From Sphagnum magellanicum (lineage: Eukaryota; Streptophyta; Sphagnopsida; Sphagnales; Sphagnaceae): a DNA stretch of 64,000 nucleotides. The DNA lies in the NCBI GenBank assembly GCA_021904315.1, contig CM038911.1:5801390-5865389 (forward strand), given 5' to 3'. Position 1 is the stretch's first letter; every line of letters begins with the position of its first letter. Positions 5,031 to 63,700 of the stretch are shown in pieces. Position numbers and translations under genes: made by a program. Under the pieces are notes generated by a model. The model did no database searches. It was not told where the DNA came from and saw nothing but the letters and a program-made list of their open reading frames with translations.

Positions 5031-5338
5031 TTGCCCAAATCAAGTGTGATTTTTACTCAATTGGATTAGCCTTCACCTTCATTGTGACTTTCACTCTATG
5101 GATTCAACTTCTGTGTGACGTTCACTCAATTGATTAACCCTCCGTTCTCTCTTGTGTTGCCCAACCCAAAGTGTGATTTCCACTCAAATGATAACCTTGC
5201 TTCTTCCTTTCTTGTGTTCTCATTGCATTAACAAGTTAACCCTCCGTTCTCTCTTGTGTTGCCCAACCCAAAGTGTGATTTCCACTCAAATGATAACCTT
5301 GCTTCTTCCTTTCTTGTGCTCTCATTGCATTAACAAGT
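5030..5338. repeat. 102-bp tandem repeat, two near-identical copies plus a degenerate third
   Basis: Copy A spans 5134-5235 and copy B 5236-5337; I see a single difference (..TTGTGTTCTC.. against ..TTGTGCTCTC..). A decayed relative lies at about 5030-5130 and shares GTTGCCCAA..CAAGTGTGATTT..ACTCAA. Because 102 is divisible by three, the repeat keeps one frame open and yields a 100-residue open frame with an internally repeated peptide. I regard that frame as a by-product, not a gene. Confidence 0.8.
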
Positions 5339-19652: not shown

Positions 19653-22600
19653 TCAAAGAGTGTCCCTCTCATTTCCCAACCCTTCCTTGGGATACAAAGG
19701 AGGTTTCTTCTCCTTTTTACTCTTCCCCTTTTTCTCTCGCATTCGTTTCTTTTTCTCCTCCATGTCTACCCACAGGTAGTCACTGGGAATTAGGAATGGA
19801 TCGGCTTCCTCATCAAGCTGCTCCTCCAAACCACTCAGGGTACCTTCCTTTGCCAAATTCTGTGACCCTCTGAGCCAATAAAGCCAGGACCCATTTGTTG
19901 CTGCAGTAGGCACCTCTGCTACTTTTGCATCCTGAAAATGCCGTGGGCTAGAGAGGGGAGTGGAAAACTCCTCTGACGGTTTCATTTCCTCAAACTTAGT
20001 AAATGTGACAACAACTCTGATGGTGGGGACCACTGGAATAGCCACCTGCCAATTGCGAAATCCACTTTGTCACTAAGCTATGAACTATGCACAGCTTGTC
20101 AGTTAGGGTGTGTTCATGAGAATCAAAACAAAGAGACCAAAGAAAACAATTACATTTGAGCATCCAACAGACCTTGACAGGGAACGATCCTGCAGGCAGC
20201 TTGGTGGTAAGGAGCTCCCGCAGCCGGCGCACAGCCTTGACCTTGTTTGCCAGAATATCTAGAAGTGGCAACAATTCCTCTGTCTTCAGAGGGAAATCAT
20301 GTGTCAACCAAAGGATAGGTCTCAATCCTTTCTTGTACTCACTCTCTGAGGTGGCCTCAGACCTTACTGTACTTCGACGAGCCTTATTTTTCAATAACTC
20401 TTTGTGAGTGCTATTTCTAGGGCTACTGTGGCTACTGTAACTGCTACTGTGCAAGTTGGTTCCCTTTATCTCCTTTCCCTTTCCCTTGGCTAACAAAAGA
20501 CCATCAACATTAGAAGCTCTCCTGTCCACTGGTACCCGGTTCTCAAAAGAAGAAGTGAGTTGGCTGTCAACAGACCTCCGACCATCAACAGGCCTTCTTC
20601 TGTTCACCTGCTTCCATTGGCTTTGACTTTCTGGTGCTGGACGTCCTGGGCTCTGGTTGGCCATTCTAAAGGTCTCACTACCAGAGCTGGATGCCTCGGA
20701 CTGCTTATCAGACAGCTGTCCATTTGATTTGACTGCCTCCAACTTTTTAGCATCCTCTCGCTTTAAGCTTTTCTTCCCCCAACCAAACCAATGCCCTTTC
20801 CTCTCCTCTTTCACAAAACCCGGGGATTCCCTGCTTCCATTCTGATTAGGTGTCTGCCGAAGATCAGAATCATCATCTGGAAACCCATACTCATACTCCT
20901 CTGTCCAGTAGTCAGAGCTTCCATTCTGGATGCCTTGATCATGCCTTCCCACACCATGTGAGCCTTCATCTCCATTCTCTACATTGTCAGATTTCAGGAC
21001 AGATTCAAGCTGCTCCTTCTCTTCTGCTGTCAGCAGATTGCTGTAGTCTTCTTCAGCCTCACCTTCTTGCCTGTCACTTTCAACTGCAAAGAGCTCCTCA
21101 TCTGTCATCGCTCCAGGAACTCTTCTAGACCTTACACTCACCTGTACATGAACCAAATTGGCATACATTTTGGAAACCAAAATATAAGCTCACTATAACA
21201 GTACATAAAACTCACAGTGCATTCCTCACTTAATCAGATTCTTCCACATTTCCAGACCATGTTTAGCTCCAGAGAAGTCCACATAGATTTGACTTGAAAG
21301 CTAAGAACAAGAAAGACCAACCTGCACATTGTGCATGTCATAAATCTTGGCCTTCCAGGAACCAACCATCTCTGTTTTCTCTTGGCGCCTCCAAGTGGTC
21401 TGGGCCACAAGTTCTGCCTGCATGACATCAATGCCTGTCACAGGCAGCCTCTTTCAGCCATTTCACATGAACACAACAAACAGCCTTGTGTGCTTGCATA
21501 CACACTGGCAACTATACTTCTCTTGCTTGGTGTTGTAAGACTGTCATATCTTGGGCACTCTATACACAACCTACATTGATCACAAATCCTTCTGATATGA
21601 ACAAAATACATCCCACCTTCTAAGGTCAAATTGCATTTCAGATCTTGAGCCCAGGCTGCTGTGGCACAACTCTAACATATCTCTAGCTTCAGCATCTCAA
21701 GCATATTCATTGCTGCATTGATATAGATAACTCAAAATGCATGTCTAGCTGTCATTAGATATAGGAGCAGACATTGAAAAAATAAGAAGGATGCTAACCT
21801 GGCCTGTACATATTGGTCCGTGACATTGCTGCAACTTCTTGCACAATCTCAGCCTCTGATGGCTGAATACCGGCTCCTTCCAAAGCATTCGACACCTCCT
21901 TATCTTTGTGAGTTAAGACGCAAAGCGTGCCTGGGGCGAGCTTTCCATCCTCGCTTCCATCACCCAAGAATAAGAAACTCTGGTCTGACCTGTGGATTCG
22001 AAACCCATCAAAACCAGCAAGAGTCATGTCTGCCCTAAGATTTGAACCCCGTTTCCATATTCGGTAAGTGTCAGATGGAGCAATGCGACCTATGAAAGGA
22101 ATCACTGAACTCTCAAAATGGAAAGTGATTTCCATGTAAAAGTCCCGCATGCGCTGCATAGTGGCTGAAAGACGAGGAAGACGGCGGCACCACTTGGCCC
22201 ATGCCATAGGTTGGTAATGCCGGGTTATGATGACAGCAATCTCTTCCTCTCTTGCACACACAGCTTCTTGCAATGCACTCCACCCTTGCTCATTTTGCAA
22301 GCTCCAGTCTGCTCCTGCACTCATCAACATCTCCACAGCTTTGCTATCACTGAGACGAACTGCCAGGTGCAAGGGTGTTTCCCGACCAGGCACATCACGT
22401 CTGTCAATAACTTTGGACACATCATCAGCCTGCTGCTCGGCTTCTATTGATTGTGCTTCTGTAGTAACCTCACCAGCTCTTGCAGGCCGGGGCAGTGTGG
22501 AGAGGATGTGGCACAGGGTAGCATGGTCCTGCTGGGCCACAGCAGTATGCACTGGACTATGTGCATATAGTGCACAATTGACTCCCACAAACTGAGCCAT
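19653..22600 (-). CDS. Ankyrin-repeat / GPCR-chaperone domain protein (plant ANKRD13 type)
   Basis: Four minus-strand exons (21799-22600, 21322-21434, 20173-21141, 19653-20045) join without a break into 2277 nt, 758 residues plus stop. Splice sites are GT-AG and the exon phases agree. The ATG at 22600 opens MAQFVGVNCA; related plant proteins also start shortly before the conserved Y-A-H-S-P-V-H. Ankyrin repeats lie at about residues 14-130 (SPVHTAV, then GRETPLHLAVRL and GADWSLQNEQGWSALQEA). The GPCR-chaperone (ANKRD13) domain follows from about 134 (WAKWCRRLPRL, MRDFYMEITFHFESSVIPFI, IAPSDTYRIWKRG) and resumes near 590 (LRPILWLTHDFPLKTEELLP). Between them, about 325-575, is a long acidic and Ser-rich low-complexity insert. 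The C-terminus (about 725-745) is Lys-rich. Animal ANKRD13 proteins act in ubiquitin-dependent receptor trafficking; the plant role is inferred from family only. Confidence 0.92.
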
Positions 22601-24060
22601 ATGGTCTTCTTCCACTTTCCAAGTAGCCTTCACATGTGTGTGATGCTTCACACCAGCCGAAACCTTTCCTGTAGAAGATATCCTCTGCCTTAAACTAAAG
22701 ACTTCCTAATCTAATCCTGTTGTCCACCAGCACACTTGGTGTACATCAGCAATAATACCCTAGACAAAACCATTATGGTATTAACACAATGCTACCCTCA
22801 TCATCGCAAGCAACAGGCTCCCTACTGTTGTTTTCTTTGCTTCAGTAGACAAATGAGCCTACAGAACAATGCTGCAGCCATATTGAGCATATGTCCAAGC
22901 TCCCTCAACCCCTCTAAAATTAGGTCAGATAGCTTTGACACCAGCTGGAAAACACTGCTCAAACACTCCCACCCACTAGTCTGAATGCCACTAGTAGAAT
23001 TGGAGTACTGTCAGCAACAAATTGCTTCCCTTGTCAACAAGGCAGTCCATCAAGTTCTCTGACAGACGAAACTAGCTCCTAGCCCACCGCCCCATCACAA
23101 ACATTCCTCAACACCTCAAGGTAGGTCAGCTTTGCTGTTGTACTCTTTGCTTCAATGATTATCTGTATTCTGACAGAACCACAATTGTATATGTCAGTGG
23201 ATGCCCTAATCCCTTCCCTCTACCTGTGACATCATTTTCCAACATGGAAAACAATTTTCATATTTTCTCTCTTCAACCATGTTGATCCAGGCAGAAAGAA
23301 CACTAAGATGAAGCCCAAAAAGAAGTGCAGCACCTCTGTGAAGACAAACTAAACCAGGCTTAACTCTCATCAGCTTCTGAATGAAACCCTAACTCCACTT
23401 TGGCTGAACTCTTTTCTCTTCCTGCCTTCTCTGTCTGTCTTTCTGCCTGGTGCTTAGGTATCCATCCGCCTCAGCACACATTGCCCGAACCCCAAACAAA
23501 GCGATCCACAAGCTTCCCCGACTACTAGCTTTCTCTCTACCATCTATTTCTATACAATCATTTTTTCTCGAGAAAAACTCTTCAAGTGGAGTTGAGAGAA
23601 TGAGAAAAGACAGTGCTAGACTGCTTTGTTACAAGTATTTTCCAAAAATAAAATAAAAATCATAAAAAAAATAAACAGCAATGCTACTGCCTGTCTGCTG
23701 TCTGTCTGCTGTTGCTACAAAACAACGACTTCTTCTCTCCCACGCCAGTTCAGAGAGGCCTCAAAAGCTCAAAGGACATGAACAAAACACACAGAGACAA
23801 AGAGACAGAGACCGAACCAAAACAAAAGAAAAGAAAAAAAAAGAGATTGTTGCACATGAAAGCGCAGAAAGCTGTGATCAGGAATAAGTACTCACCTGCT
23901 TGAAGCTCCAAAGTAGGATCCTGCAACGTCCAATTCCCTTGCCGCCTCTAAAGCATCGCTACCACCTCCTCCTCCGACGACGACGACGACAACGACAGCG
24001 GCAACAGCAGCAGCTGCGAACTCCGGGCAAAGGAACAAGAAGACACACAACAAGGGTCAC
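22601..24060 (-). promoter_or_regulatory. Spliced 5' leader of the ANKRD13-type gene
   Basis: The leader continues upstream of the ATG to an acceptor (TATCTTCTACAG) at 22669, so 22601-22668 is untranslated. A good donor (CAG followed by GTGAGTAC) lies at 23891-23898. The exon it closes extends upward through a purine/GAG-rich and CGTCGTCGTC-rich stretch to roughly 24000 or beyond. The intron of about 1.2 kb (22669-23895) has no coding block I recognise. The frame upstream of the ATG stays open within the 22601-22668 exon, so a slightly longer N-terminus cannot be excluded. Confidence 0.5.
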
Positions 24061-30086: not shown

Positions 30087-31868
30087 TCACACATAGTTCA
30101 AAGAACTCCCACCTCCAGGCATTGAGTATGTTTGCTCAGGGATACTGTACCCACCAACTACCACAATACTTCCCTCCTGAAGATCTTTGATTTCACGCAG
30201 AGATGAGCTACCACGTAGCTCCCCTGCAACGAGCCCCACCCTCTGGGGCACCTTCTTGACCAACTGGCTTGGTCGGATAACAATTCCATCCAAGAGCAGA
30301 CCACTGCTCCAAATACCTGCATGGAGTTCTGTCATGGAAAATTGCAACTCCAACGACCTGCCCTCATGTTCTACCTGAAACTCTCCACCATCAAATTCAA
30401 GCCACTTGTGGCTCCCTCTCAATAAGGGGAAGCCTTGAAGCTTGTTAGTGCAGTTGAGGTACTGTTGTGAGTCTGCATGCTGGCCATCATTTGTCGCCAG
30501 GCGGAAGATGACAGGTTTAGTATGTTCTAAAGTATATGCTGTTACAGGCAGGTGTCTCTCCCTTGATATTGGTTGGACTCCTGCCAGTTGCAGCCTCCAC
30601 GACAGCGTGTATCTTCCTTGGGGCAAAGAGCAGTTAAAGACTCCACTCACTTCCACCAATACTGCAGCCTTTGAGTATGCCACCTCTGAAAACCTGCAGT
30701 CAGAAAAATTTACAATCTGTCATAGACAAGAAATACTCAGTAAACTCAACTCTGTCAAATCAGCTAAAAGTTGAGCTCGGCTTCAAACAAACAGACAAAT
30801 CGTGATCAGATATGGCCATGATGATCTTGTATGAAAACAGCATCAACTAAAATGGGATATATCTTGAGAGGTCTCATCTGTTGCATTATGTAACAAGAGA
30901 GCTGTGCATTGAGAACTCAAATTTGCACTGTCAGATGGTTGTTCGCGTATGTCAGGTGGATGGCTTGGCTCAAGAAACATCCCTTCCCCTAATAACTGAC
31001 TGGCCCTTCAATTGTTGACAGACCTGGATTCCATGTTATGGGGGAGCCATTCCCAGTATCTGGCATCGTCTCCACGTACAATTGTGAACTTTTTAGCTGA
31101 AATAGTGCAGCAAACTCCTCCAGTTGCACGATCCAACCAGTATCCCTGCTCAATCATTACCAGTTATTAGTTCTTAAGAAAATAAATTCAGAGCTAACTC
31201 TGCACCATGATATAGATCAATGCCATATCCTATTTGTCAAAACCCAAACCAACAAATCCAGCTGGGTTATGTTCTTCTCTGCAAGGGAAGAAGCCAGCTG
31301 AAATCCAGGACCAAAGCTGAGACAAGGACCAAAGGTAGTTAAAAGCTACACTGCCATCTCTTTTCAAAACACTGAGCACATACAATGTGCCCTAGTCTGC
31401 TCTATAGGAAAGAATGAAGATGGAAATGATGTTTATTACCTCAGTCCCATCTTGAAGAAAAATCTGTTTGCACAAAAGATGGTACAGATCTCTCTTTGAA
31501 TTGTATGGAGCCAAAGGCCTGTAATTCATTGCAAGGGATACAACCTCACTGTAATTGAAGGGAAGCATGTTCTCCCACACCAGATCACAGCCAGATACTT
31601 CTCCAAAAGTGCGATTAACAAGGGCAAGCCTTGCTACATCCCATGGACTTGTGTATGCCAAAATCAGTGCAATACAACCTGCCGGTAGATTTCCTAGTCC
31701 TCTGGATTCTCCTTCATCATTATAACCATCTATAGTTCCAGCATCACCCTCTTCTTCTCCTTCTTCATTATCGTCATCATCATCCTCAGCAAAATGAAAC
31801 ACTCTGTTTTTGATACCTGACATGCTACACTGATCCCCTATGACCTTGTCTGAATGTTCACACTCCAT
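30087..31868 (-). CDS. F-box protein with phloem-protein-2 (PP2)-like domain
   Basis: Three minus-strand exons, 31440-31868, 31024-31145 and 30087-30693, join to 1158 nt (385 residues plus stop); GT-AG introns and phases agree. The ATG at 31868 is the first after an in-frame stop. Residues 28-56 are an Asp/Glu-rich acidic tract. The F-box is at about 58-103 (LPAGCIALILAYTSPWDVAR, then ALVNRTF and VWENMLP) and should bind SKP1 in an SCF ubiquitin ligase. The PP2-like region runs from about 144 (GYWLDRATGG, ISAKKFTIVRGDDARYWEW, RFSEVAYSKAAVLVEVSG) to about 325 (WSSGLLLDGIVIRP), matching plant F-box PP2-A13/A15-like proteins, where this lectin-like domain may recognise glycans or client proteins. 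About 60 extra residues follow it. The substrate is unknown. Confidence 0.93.
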
Positions 31869-33620
31869 TACTATTCTTGAGTTACTTGACACTCCAGCAA
31901 AGTGAAATAACTTCTCTTTTGATGGCACTAGCCCCTACATTCCAAGTACTGTCTCATTGTCAACAACACCTACAACTGAATAGTAAATGCTCCAGTTTCC
32001 TGAAGTGATGGATGCACTTCTTGTTCTTTGCTCCAGAGATAGATTCTTCATTGTATCTGCATCTTCCATCCTGGATGGCATAACCCATTGTCTTCTTTGA
32101 CAACAAATCACTCATGACTGGATGATGCTCAATGACTGTGTTCTATTGCTCAAAGATTCCCAATCCTGTCTTACAGTAGTAGATCACAGAGAGTCCCGCA
32201 CCACTTGATTACATTTGACCTGCACACACACACACACACACACACGTAATATAAGTTCCAGTTTCTTCAATGCCAGCAGCGCTGTTTTTTTCTGGCTTTC
32301 GCTACACATTGCTCCTTCACACGTGATCTAGCAAGACTTATAAGTCCTGTCATCCTCATACCTCATACTCGCAGAACCACTCTAGAATGTTCTTGTTGTT
32401 GTTTGTCTTCCTGACATGATTTGTATTCTGGATGAATCTGCACTGAAAAGGGTTTTGATTTTTGCAATAAAGCTTAGCAATGTGTGAACAAGGAGCCACA
32501 TCATCCTCTGCTGCCTGGAACAGGCTGAGGCAGAGCTCGTGTTCCACACTATCATCATCAACCATGGACCAGAAAACCATCACCAAAAACCACATAATTA
32601 TATAAACTGATTCTTCTGCATCCTCTGCAAACACTAAGACCATACATAACACCACCACAACAACAATAATAATGTGATGCAGAAGAGCTTGTCAATCCTC
32701 CTGCAACACCTACAACAACAACCTGAAAGAAAAGAGAAAAAACATAGATTACAGCAACATGCTTCCCAAATTCAAACTCCCTGGTGTTCAATGGTGTGAA
32801 GTTCTTCTAGAAGCTTCTGGACTCAAGCTAAAGGTCCCTCATAACCCGGAAGAAAATAGGGTGCAGCTTCTCCTCCCCTACTTCTCTCTGACGTGATCTT
32901 TAAGGGAAAAAACGCCCCATATTCCATGCAGAAACCATGATGCCTGAATGGCATCATCATCATCACAAAGTTGAGGAAATTCGACTGGTGAGAGAACAAG
33001 ACTCAACAAAGCAAAAGAAAGAAGAAGAAGAGACAGAGAGAAATCTACCAAAGCAAAATCCGATTCGCAGCATCAGCAGCAGCAGAAGTACGATGTGATG
33101 CCAAAGAAAATAAAGGGGGAAGAAGGCAAAAAGGGGGAAATGTTTGATGTTCACACGATGTCGTCATTTGTAGTAACAGCTGCTTTGCAGAAGCTTGCAT
33201 GACGTTGTTGTAGCTGTGGAGGAGGAGTCGAGGGGGGGAAAAGAAAGAAGGCAGAAGAAGAACAACAAGAACAAGCTACAAATAGCAGCTACTGCCATTG
33301 TTGTTCTCCAAAGCTTTGATCTCCAAACCCTAATAGCACAACAACAAGCTTACTTTTGCTGCTGCTGTTGTAACACCACCATTTTTCCACCTATCAACTT
33401 TCTCTCCTACAATCCGAATCTTGTGTTCACAAATTCTTCAACTGCACTCAACACTCCTTCTTTGGTCTCAAGAAGAAGAAGAAGAACGGAAGAAGAAGAC
33501 GATGACGACGAGGAGATCAACAACTCCCGAGACTTCGAAGAATTCCTTTCATTTCTCCAACTTCATCACAACTACCACCTACAATCTACAACACCGCCAC
33601 GGAAAATAAAATAAACATAA
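31869..33620 (-). promoter_or_regulatory. Probable spliced leader and promoter zone of the F-box/PP2 gene
   Basis: No protein is recognisable upstream of the F-box gene's ATG. Features that fit a leader or first intron are pyrimidine-rich tracts on the minus strand and a candidate donor AAAA/GTAAGC at about 33350, preceded by a short minus-strand frame (ATG, Gln-rich, stop) that could be an upstream ORF. A telo-box, AAACCCTAA, is at 33325-33333 on the + strand. A CTT/GTC-rich stretch lies at about 33470-33520. The exact transcription start is not visible. Confidence 0.35.
32222..32245. repeat. CA dinucleotide microsatellite
   Basis: An uninterrupted run of about 12 CA units in the upstream/leader region of the F-box gene. 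Confidence 0.9.
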
Positions 33621-60474: not shown

Positions 60475-60517
<43 letters not shown>

Positions 60518-60710
60518 CAAGCATTGAGTAGTGATGATGATAAAAAAGATGATAATGACAAAATTTGCAAACAAGTAAATTGTCTGCTTGCTGATTGTTA
60601 GCTTCTTGTTGTTGTTTTTTTTTTTTTCGCTAGCTAGAATTTGAAGCTTCTCGGTGGGGAGCTGAACCCTTGACTTAGTAGTTGTTGAGGAGAGAGTCTG
60701 AAGTCCTCAG
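60300..60710 (+). promoter_or_regulatory. Leader/promoter zone of the DUF604 glycosyltransferase with GA repeat
   Basis: Upstream of the ATG at 60711 are a CTG trinucleotide run (60422-60440) and a perfect GA run of about 19 units at 60478-60515. GA runs close to plant start codons are common in 5' UTRs and can bind GAGA-type (BPC) factors. A T run at 60617-60629 follows. The transcription start is not visible. Confidence 0.5.
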
Positions 60711-63700
60711 ATGATGATGGCAAGAGGATCTGGCGGAGGAGGAGGAACCAAGAAGCTTCAAATTGGGGATCTGTTGCAGACGGGAATCATCATGGGGTAC
60801 AGTAGAAGCATAAGCATCGCAGTAGTAGCCATAGCCGTGGTATGCTTCTGTACCTACATCCTCCAAATTCTAATCCTCAATACAGCTGCAGGCTTGAACC
60901 CATACTCTTGCACTTCCTTGTTGCAGTGTACACTACTAGATCAAAACCAGAGTAGTATTCATCAGATTACATCTGAATCTTCCAGGAGCAATTCTTCAAG
61001 GACACAAAATTCTTATACACAGCAGCAGCAGCAAGAGGAGCAGCAGCAGCAGCAGCAGCAGAACAACAACACCAACAACATCGTCATCATCTCTGAGCTA
61101 AATGAATCTCCTGGACCCAAGAGTCGATCCGGTGGAGGCACTGAGCTTTCGAGGATCGTCTTTGGAATTGCCACAGCTGCCAAGAATTGGTCCAGGAGAA
61201 AAGAGTATATCAAGCTGTGGTGGAATTCTTCCAGCTCCTGCAACAACAGAAACAACAATTCCAGCTGCTGCAACAATAACAACAATAAGAATTCCAGCTG
61301 CAGTAGCACACGAATGCGGGGATTTGTGTGGTTAGATGAAGAGGTGAATGAAACAACACATTGGAGTGAAGACTGGCCTCCTTACAAAATCTCTGAAGAC
61401 GTTTCAGACAAATCCAAGTTCAATTGGAGTCATGTGAAAAGGAAATGGGGAGTACGCATTTCTCGCATTGTGTCTGAGACTTTCAGGCTTGGATTACCCA
61501 ATGTGGATTGGTTTGTGCTTGGAGATGATGATACTTTCTTCTTCCCCCAAAATTTGGTGAAGGTTTTGTCGAGGTATGATCATACTCAGATGCATTATAT
61601 TGGCAGTTTCTCTGAGACTCATTCCCAGAATATTATGCTCTTCTCCTACAACATGGCTTTCGGTGGTGGCGGGTTTGCTATCAGTTTCCCCTTGGCTCAA
61701 GCTCTTGCTCAGATGCAAGATGAGTGCAATTTCAGGTACCCAACAAACCCCCTCACTTGACAATTCCTCCCAAGTCCTTTCTTTCTGTGTATAAGGTAAG
61801 GAACTTTTGTGAAGCTCTTCCTGGGTTTGAGGGCCTAGAGGAGGGCAGAAGCCCAAGTTTGGGGCCCAAAACCCAAGAAGAGCTTCACAAAAGTTCCTTC
61901 ATATGCTTTCCTCAGGCTCTTCTTGGCTTTGAGGGCCAAGCTGAGGGCAGAAGCCTGAGATTGGGGCCTAAAATCCAAGACAAGTCTTTGGAAGAAAGAG
62001 CCTCACAAAAGCTCCTTCAAAGGCTCTTCTTGGGTTTGGGGGTCCAGGTAAAGGCAGAAGCCCAAGTTTGGGGCCAAAGACTCAAGAAGAGTCTCAGGAA
62101 GAGCCTGAGGAAGAGCCTCACAAAAGGTCCTTCAAAGCCTCTCCCAGAGGCTCTTCTTGGGTTTGAGGGCCAACCTGAGGGCAGAAGCCTGAGATTGGGG
62201 TCGAAAACCCAAGAAGAGTCTCAATAAGAACCTCAGAAAAGTTCCTTTTCCTTTACATAAAGAATTAAAAAAATTTGGGCCTAACAAAAATGGAAGCTCC
62301 TTTGAAAATCAAATTGAAATCTTCCATGAATTGGACTTTAGTTTGTGGTTTAAAAGGGAAATTCTGCCCAAGGGGAGGTGACTGAAAAAGAAGGAAGAAA
62401 TTTTCAAAAGTTGATTATGAATCCAATGGTCAAATCAACCTTCAAATTTTGAGTTTGCACTAAAAATTGAAAAGCTCAGATTGATGCTTGGGTTTTGGAT
62501 GAAATGCTTCATCTTTGTGTTTTGTGATCTTGTAAAAAGCTGCTGCTGCTGCTCTAGTTTTGTGAGTTTTTTACAATTTTGTAGATTTTTGCAAAAGGGT
62601 TTTAAGCTTGAATCTACTGTCGCAATTTAGTGATCCTGAAGAAGGTTTGTTACAATCCAATCAGCTCATAATTTCATTTGGAAAATAAATTCCTCAGAAT
62701 AATAGTACATGGAGTATTGTTATTGTTTGTGCCCATGATCTCTGCCATTATGTCACGTGCCAAGGCTTAAGAATGGTGGGATAAAAAGACCCGAAAGAAA
62801 TCTCACCTCTAAAATGAGTATTCTGAACTTGGATTTTGTATTGAGATGTAGTAGCAGTATGTGATGGCTGATGAATGTAGAACAGGTATGGACAAATGTT
62901 TGGGAGTGATGATCGGTTGTATGCATGCATATCAGAACTTGGCGTACCTTTGACTAAAAATCCCGGATTCCATCAGGTAAGAGACAAAAAACTTCCTTCT
63001 GAGGCCCATCCACTCTCATTTTCTAATGTTTTTGGCACAACCCAACAAGCCTGAATCAATCTTTTTTTCTAGTTTCAACATATCTGTTAACATCAATGAC
63101 CAGCAACGCAGAATTCTAACTATGGGGAGTCTAGCTGAAGTACTTACCACCTTGCACGTGGGTAGTGCTGGATTGAATTGATCTTGTTCTGGTTGTATGC
63201 AAATTGATATAAACTTGACTTGTCGTGAACCCAGTGTCCTCTAAAAGCATTGGGACAACAATATACATGGTTGCTAGTCCTTGGAAGAAGGAAGAATTAG
63301 GGCAAGCCAGTTTGTGAGGGTTGTAAAACCAAAACTAAGAAAGGAGAACAATTTATCCTTCTGTAAAATGCAAAATGCAAAGATAAAGAATGTGGTTTGT
63401 TTGTGGTGCCATTATTGTTGTTGCAGATGGATATAAATGGAGACCCATTTGGAATACTAGCAGCGCATCCGGTAACACCCATTCTAAGCATCCATCATTT
63501 GGATACAATCTCCCCAATTTTTCCCAATAAAACCCGCCTTCAAGCTTTACAAAAGTTAACTCAAGCAGCGGAGGTGGAATCAGGAAGTGTTGTACAGCAG
63601 TCCATCTGTTATGACAAAGAGCTGAAATGGTCATTCTCAGTTTCTTGGGGTTATGTTGTTCATATTCATGCTGGATTCTTACCACCTCATGAAATGGTGT

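Follow-up and report, generated by a model that had tools for sequence, protein, structure and literature searches.

A hairpin array in a glycosyltransferase intron of Sphagnum magellanicum, probably an expanded old copy of a dispersed MITE- or foldback-like repeat

Foldback elements of plants, which include the FARE and Hairpin families, are among the described systems that come closest to the hairpin array presented here, together with MITEs and with plant MIRNA genes derived from transposable elements. The terminal repeats of the Mutator/Foldback family Tm1 are composites of 13-15-bp tandem units, and target-site duplications of 8-10 bp accompany 45 of its 53 complete elements (PMC3169594). 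MITEs lying near genes are described in a mulberry study as affecting expression and splicing (PMC6593561), and MITE-derived miRNAs in promoters and introns have been reported for wheat (PMC10004981).

The array lies in a 64,000-nt stretch of a Sphagnum magellanicum contig (hereafter the window), within an intron of a DUF604 glycosyltransferase gene, and probably represents an old member of a family of dispersed repeats, about 285 bp long, that bear a hairpin and resemble MITEs or foldback elements. The copies share a common anatomy with repeatable ends, are dispersed and diverged, and fall into two subfamilies, and the window copy has an intronic position. Like MITEs, the repeat is short, non-coding, dispersed and capable of forming a hairpin, and two of its copies, those of the window and of locus L076, lie in apparent introns; unlike MITEs, it carries an asymmetric unpaired tail, shows no detected target-site duplication and matches no named superfamily tested. 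With foldback elements, as exemplified by Tm1 (PMC3169594), it has in common the presence of palindromes and of internal tandem repeats whose number differs from copy to copy, whereas its tandem unit is a whole 107-nt hairpin, its four-unit array is found in one copy and no duplication was seen. As in plant MIRNA genes derived from transposable elements, a near-perfect hairpin of repeat origin lies within an intron, but the candidate hairpin lacks strand asymmetry. The repeat thus appears to be a new family of a known kind, presumably a transposon. Among the titles listed by literature searches, one of them for Sphagnum with MITEs or small RNAs, none concerned the element. What is described is an apparent old hairpin-plus-tail repeat family in a moss genome, whose palindromes, decayed to varying degrees, form a natural series; the window copy is one clean locus at which to ask whether the hairpins of an intronic repeat are maintained by RNA processing, by DNA-level correction between arms, or by neither.

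The hairpin array and its host gene

The host gene is read on the plus strand, as are all features of the array given below. Its first exon (60711-61735, start codon assumed) matches the Pfam families PF02434 and PF04646 over 60720-61733, and its frame joins that of the next exons. A predicted GT-AG intron of 1150 nt (61736-62885, with the junctions TTTCAG/GTACC and GAACAG/GTATG) separates it from exon 2 (62886-62976), which was recognized from the spliced reading frame. With these splice sites, predicted by eye, the frame stays open and runs on into DUF604. The placement of the array inside an intron of a glycosyltransferase gene, proposed in the initial annotation, agrees with this predicted structure, the gene being of the DUF604/Fringe type. 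Window positions 60478-61061 contain a GA microsatellite, upstream of the assumed start codon, and a CAG/polyglutamine run within exon 1.

The array does consist of four tandem units of hairpin type at 61798-62250, which are also detected as an imperfect tandem repeat. Taken as units of 107 nt, they lie at 61797-61903, 61899-62005, 62006-62112 and 62133-62239; spacings of 107 and 127 bp agree with the range of 107-127 bp first given for them, but the first spacing is 102. Identity to the reference unit at 62006-62112 is 65%, 65% and 77% for the other three, and units 2 and 4 form the closest pair (64/71 positions of the core and 23/24 of the loop). The 71-nt cores are only 77-90% identical pairwise, which makes the recent origin once suggested for unit 1 doubtful. 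Loop words do recur among the units, GAGGGCAGAAGCC being exact in units 1, 2 and 4 and carrying two mismatches in unit 3. An open frame of 167 aa across the array (61724-62227) was rejected as coding because, with spacings of 107 and 127, successive units fall out of frame with one another.

The left outer arm (61798-61822) is single-copy in the array, and unit 1 (61798-61899) joins this left terminal arm to an inner hairpin and to the first copy of the right outer arm. Units 2 (61908-62017), 3 (62018-62132) and 4 (62133-62249) each consist of an inner hairpin and a right outer arm, without the left one. The right arm of unit 4 adjoins an AT-rich tail (62254-62417), which is common to the dispersed copies, has no consensus secondary structure and matches a by-eye consensus of the family at 84% of 158 aligned positions. 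The whole repeat element, with its expanded hairpin half and its tail, extends over 631 bp (61787-62417), its ends being set by comparison with the dispersed copies. The left arm at 61798-61822 is 92% complementary to 62108-62132 and 88% complementary to 61993-62017; a longer stretch, 61788-61819, is 78% complementary to 62226-62257, the right member of this pair preceding the tail and not standing at the end of the element.

Unit 1 had been credited with a 30-bp arm containing one mismatch, which is what is found: 23 pairs, a mismatch and 7 further pairs (30/31). All 23 pairs of its outer stem are formed, and over 61798-61831/61866-61899 pairing amounts to 31/34. The array as a whole folds to -233.4 kcal/mol, compared with a mean of -166.1 for shuffled sequence (z -10.9, 0/100 as low). 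Folded alone, units 1, 3 and 4 reach -69.9 (z -11.2), -46.8 (z -5.6) and -44.7 (z -5.7), respectively, with 0/300 shuffles as low in each case, and unit 2 is weak by itself (-35.6, z -1.8, 12/300 shuffles as low), hardly above chance. In the minimum-energy structure unit 2 pairs with unit 3 in one joint hairpin, flanked by the hairpins of units 1 and 4, in place of four equal ones. Folding of unit 1 is equally good on either strand, the minus strand reaching -71.3, which is the behaviour to be anticipated of palindromic DNA. No other fold in the window is as strong: among 8520 segments of 110 nt, sampled every 15 nt on both strands, unit 1 ranks first. The initial impression of a unit 1 far better paired than units 2-4 arises because unit 1 alone has both outer arms.

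A dispersed family of hairpin-and-tail repeats

The array makes up the hairpin half of a dispersed repeat, about 285 bp long, that consists of a ~110-nt palindrome and a following AT-rich tail. In the window's own genome (438,994,042 bases), searches with the array, unit 1 and two other copies as queries found 48 other matching places on 18 of the 31 contigs; this number is a lower bound, and some of the places are short, with only the hairpin or only the tail covered. Of the first 12 copies, counting that of the window, 9 have an alignable tail of ~165 nt, which always lies on the same side of the hairpin; a 19-mer of the tail core occurs 34 times at ≤2 mismatches, compared with 6 occurrences of the reversed control. 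Of 35 loci examined, 19 allowed both ends to be placed, in some cases by extrapolation, and C13c and C8b, which are among the 19, share flanks; the analysis of ends was made without L081, L082, L085 and the places lacking loci. Lengths of the 18 non-window copies with both ends range from 242 to 515 bp around a median of 285 bp, and most of the extra length of the 631-bp window copy consists of additional hairpin units. Among the copies examined, that of the window alone has a four-unit array, confined to one side of the element; the others have one hairpin or partly duplicated arms. The right arms of C13a and C13b are partly duplicated, and internal duplication is therefore a recurrent event in the family. 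An exact pattern scan of viral contigs gave 0 matches.

Five rows of the search results (L038, L039, L046, L049 and L054) correspond to one copy inside a younger repeat; they were dropped and are still counted among the 48 places. This younger repeat exceeds 3 kb, has copies about 89-96% identical on C14 (twice), C7, C16 and C9, and carries one old tail and part of a hairpin, which it has multiplied passively. L066 and L080 have common flanks beyond the element, as seen by eye, and seemingly represent one larger duplicated segment. A Pfam search of 30 open reading frames, 29 near copies and one in the window, found families above cut-off in 7: ketoacyl synthase twice in L004, P450 in L005, S1 self-incompatibility in L072, parts of glyoxal oxidase twice in L076, and DUF604 in the window. 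Only L076 clearly sets another copy between coding parts of one gene; there, at L076:849-2767, the copy stands between two coding parts of a glyoxal-oxidase-type gene and is apparently intronic.

The copies are dispersed and have defined ends, as MITE/TIR elements do; by eye, ATGTATAAGGTAAGGAACTTTT at the 5′ end bears only a loose resemblance to the reversed 3′ end, ATGTAAAGAACTTT. No target-site duplication was found in the 19 copies with both ends (best z 2.4 over 1456 combinations), and since the copies are old, such duplications may have decayed. Long terminal repeats made of tandem subrepeats, which characterize foldback elements, were not found among the copies read. The initial annotation had named a multiplied fold-back transposon as the alternative to an RNA locus and had expected of it hundreds of dispersed copies with target-site duplications. 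This alternative is the better reading, given a dispersed family with a common 3′ tail, and half of what was expected is present, in the form of the 48 other places (a lower bound), but the duplications are missing; because none was found, the MITE or foldback status of the repeat is one that we infer.

Transposition of DNA from active source copies, in which the two palindrome arms remained alike, would have dispersed the family. Once the element had been inserted, tandem duplication of the inner hairpin together with the right outer arm, by slippage or unequal exchange that the palindrome would have favoured, could have produced the four units. As a consequence of this duplication, the left terminal arm would be able to pair with any of the four right arms, the nearest of which gives the long stem of unit 1. 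The element would be removed with the intron, and the array is most likely a passenger that may occasionally feed Dicer-like enzymes.

Decay of the stems and correction between arms

The family copies appear to be old: with gaps disregarded, 24 tails show 79-91% identity (mean 83%) to a by-eye consensus. A conserved RNA structure in the tail was considered and rejected, 0 consensus pairs being found in 17 tails (7 of the 24 measured tails left out). The hairpins were compared in an alignment of 16, from which 7 of 23 loci with truncated or complex hairpins were left out (C1a, C4a, C13a, C10b, C8, C6 and C4b) and outside which stand 12 loci added later. The RNAalifold structure of these 16 hairpins collapsed to 3 pairs (R1) and gave way to a hand-set structure (R2). 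Stem positions are paired in 79.6% of 563 cells, close to the 80.2% computed for unconstrained decay at 16% divergence with two-thirds transitions assumed; family-wide, stem pairing is about what such decay would give.

The covariation score of the 16 hairpins is 0.226 vs 0.142, with 0/500 shuffles as high, and 14 of 36 pairs have changed on both sides, a number that 61/500 shuffles reached. Two tail types mark two subfamilies, and in 10/10 copies scored for both, the bases at stem columns 27 and 31 agree with the type: 5 copies of one tail type have T at column 27 of the 5′ arm and C-G or G-C at column 31, and 5 of the other type have A and T-A, respectively. Since these stem bases go with the tail type, covariation largely reflects source copies whose two arms changed together. 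The observed pairing of 79.6% stands against 75.6% after global shuffling and 77.5% after shuffling within subfamilies (55/2000 as high); without the window copy it is 78.7%, compared with 77.0% within subfamilies (98/2000 as high). Shuffling within the two subfamilies removes about half of the excess pairing, and on this ground, and because shuffles reproduced the both-side changes, covariation was rejected as a sign of RNA selection. The excess that survives within subfamilies was counted against a repeat that simply decays.

Unit 1 keeps 31/31 inner pairs, compared with 365/454 cells in 15 other copies (68-90% each, best 28/31), a comparison that favours unit 1 in that the 31-pair structure was taken from unit 1 itself, which was also picked as the best of four. 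Under neutral decay from a perfect stem, ≥30/31 pairs would be kept with P 0.009 at 16% divergence and 0.08 at 10%, and 31 of 34 pairs with P 0.07 at 16% and 0.36 at 10%. These values are suggestive of a unit 1 somewhat better preserved than simple decay predicts. At column 31/162 it has G-C, compared with C-G in 5/5 other subfamily-A hairpins, and GAAGC/GCTTC is found only in the left arm and the nearest right arm. RNA selection, correction from arm to arm and parallel C-to-T changes are all possible explanations of its pairing.

Correction of the palindrome at the DNA level, by template switching or arm conversion, would account for the pairing of unit 1 without any RNA function and is compatible with an origin of the array from an old dispersed repeat. 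The change common to the left arm and the nearest right arm and absent from the other three right arms points to such correction, as does the pairing excess within subfamilies, with or without the window copy; yet the shared change concerns one locus only, and parallel C-to-T changes in identical contexts of both arms would look alike. We hold this explanation tentatively, with the balance tilted somewhat against it.

Small RNAs, splicing and other features of the window

It seems quite improbable that unit 1 is a young MIRNA or hpRNA locus derived from the repeat, cut by Dicer-like enzymes into 21-24-nt RNAs and kept paired by selection. Such a locus would agree with the strongest fold of the window, with an arm duplex of few mismatches, as is required of plant MIRNA genes (23/23 outer pairs, though the array units differ by 10-23%), and with covarying changes of unit 1's own (G-C vs C-G at column 31, and GAAGC/GCTTC). 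The neutral probability of 0.009 at 16% divergence also speaks for it, but this value rises to 0.08 at 10% divergence and to 0.07 over 34 pairs at 16%, unit 1 was chosen as the best of four, and its stem is symmetric on both strands. The MITE-derived miRNAs reported from introns and promoters of wheat also speak in its favour (PMC10004981).

Rfam families in the window numbered 0 at gathering score, which weighs against a MIRNA locus, a curated miRNA match being supportive and not required for a new one. Matches at permissive thresholds, the best with 40.8 bits vs a cut-off of 95 and on both strands, were rejected as chance products of a palindrome; the best of them belong to what we take to be animal miRNA families. 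With ≤3 mismatches allowed, an outer-stem 21-mer is matched 35 times in the genome (4 in the array), compared with 13 for the reversed control, and at least 3 of those outside the array coincide with family copies; a second 21-mer has 51 (2 in the array), compared with 24 for the control. In this genome search neither 21-mer had a perfect match outside the window and no trans target was convincing, and the nearest outside matches of the outer-stem 21-mer, a further point against a MIRNA locus, are a 1-mismatch site that lies within or next to open frames and a 2-mismatch site in a local repeat. In its most far-reaching form, this reading would have double changes peculiar to unit 1 (C-G to G-C, G-C to A-T) keeping its stem paired ever since insertion, and the intronic repeat now serving, in a moss lineage, as a functional hpRNA- or MIRNA-like gene transcribed together with the glycosyltransferase, while units 2-4 would offer a ready stock of further hairpins, a course of events to which we give little credence.

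An influence of the array on splicing or expression of the glycosyltransferase, through intron structure or through silencing of the repeat, is very unlikely: strong structure in the 5′ part of the intron, a stop at 61758 that a retained intron would meet and the reported effects of mulberry MITEs on expression and splicing of nearby genes (PMC6593561) favour it, but nothing in the sequence ties the array to regulation.

Elsewhere in the window, a Phloem-protein-2 (PP2) domain is encoded on the minus strand at 30087-31934, and the next open reading frame has an F-box-like match below cut-off (22.9 vs 24.3 bits). An ankyrin-repeat gene with an ANKRD13 C-terminal domain lies at 19996-22705, also on the minus strand. 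At 5134-5338, two head-to-tail copies of a 102-bp unit match at 99% and represent a recent local duplication.
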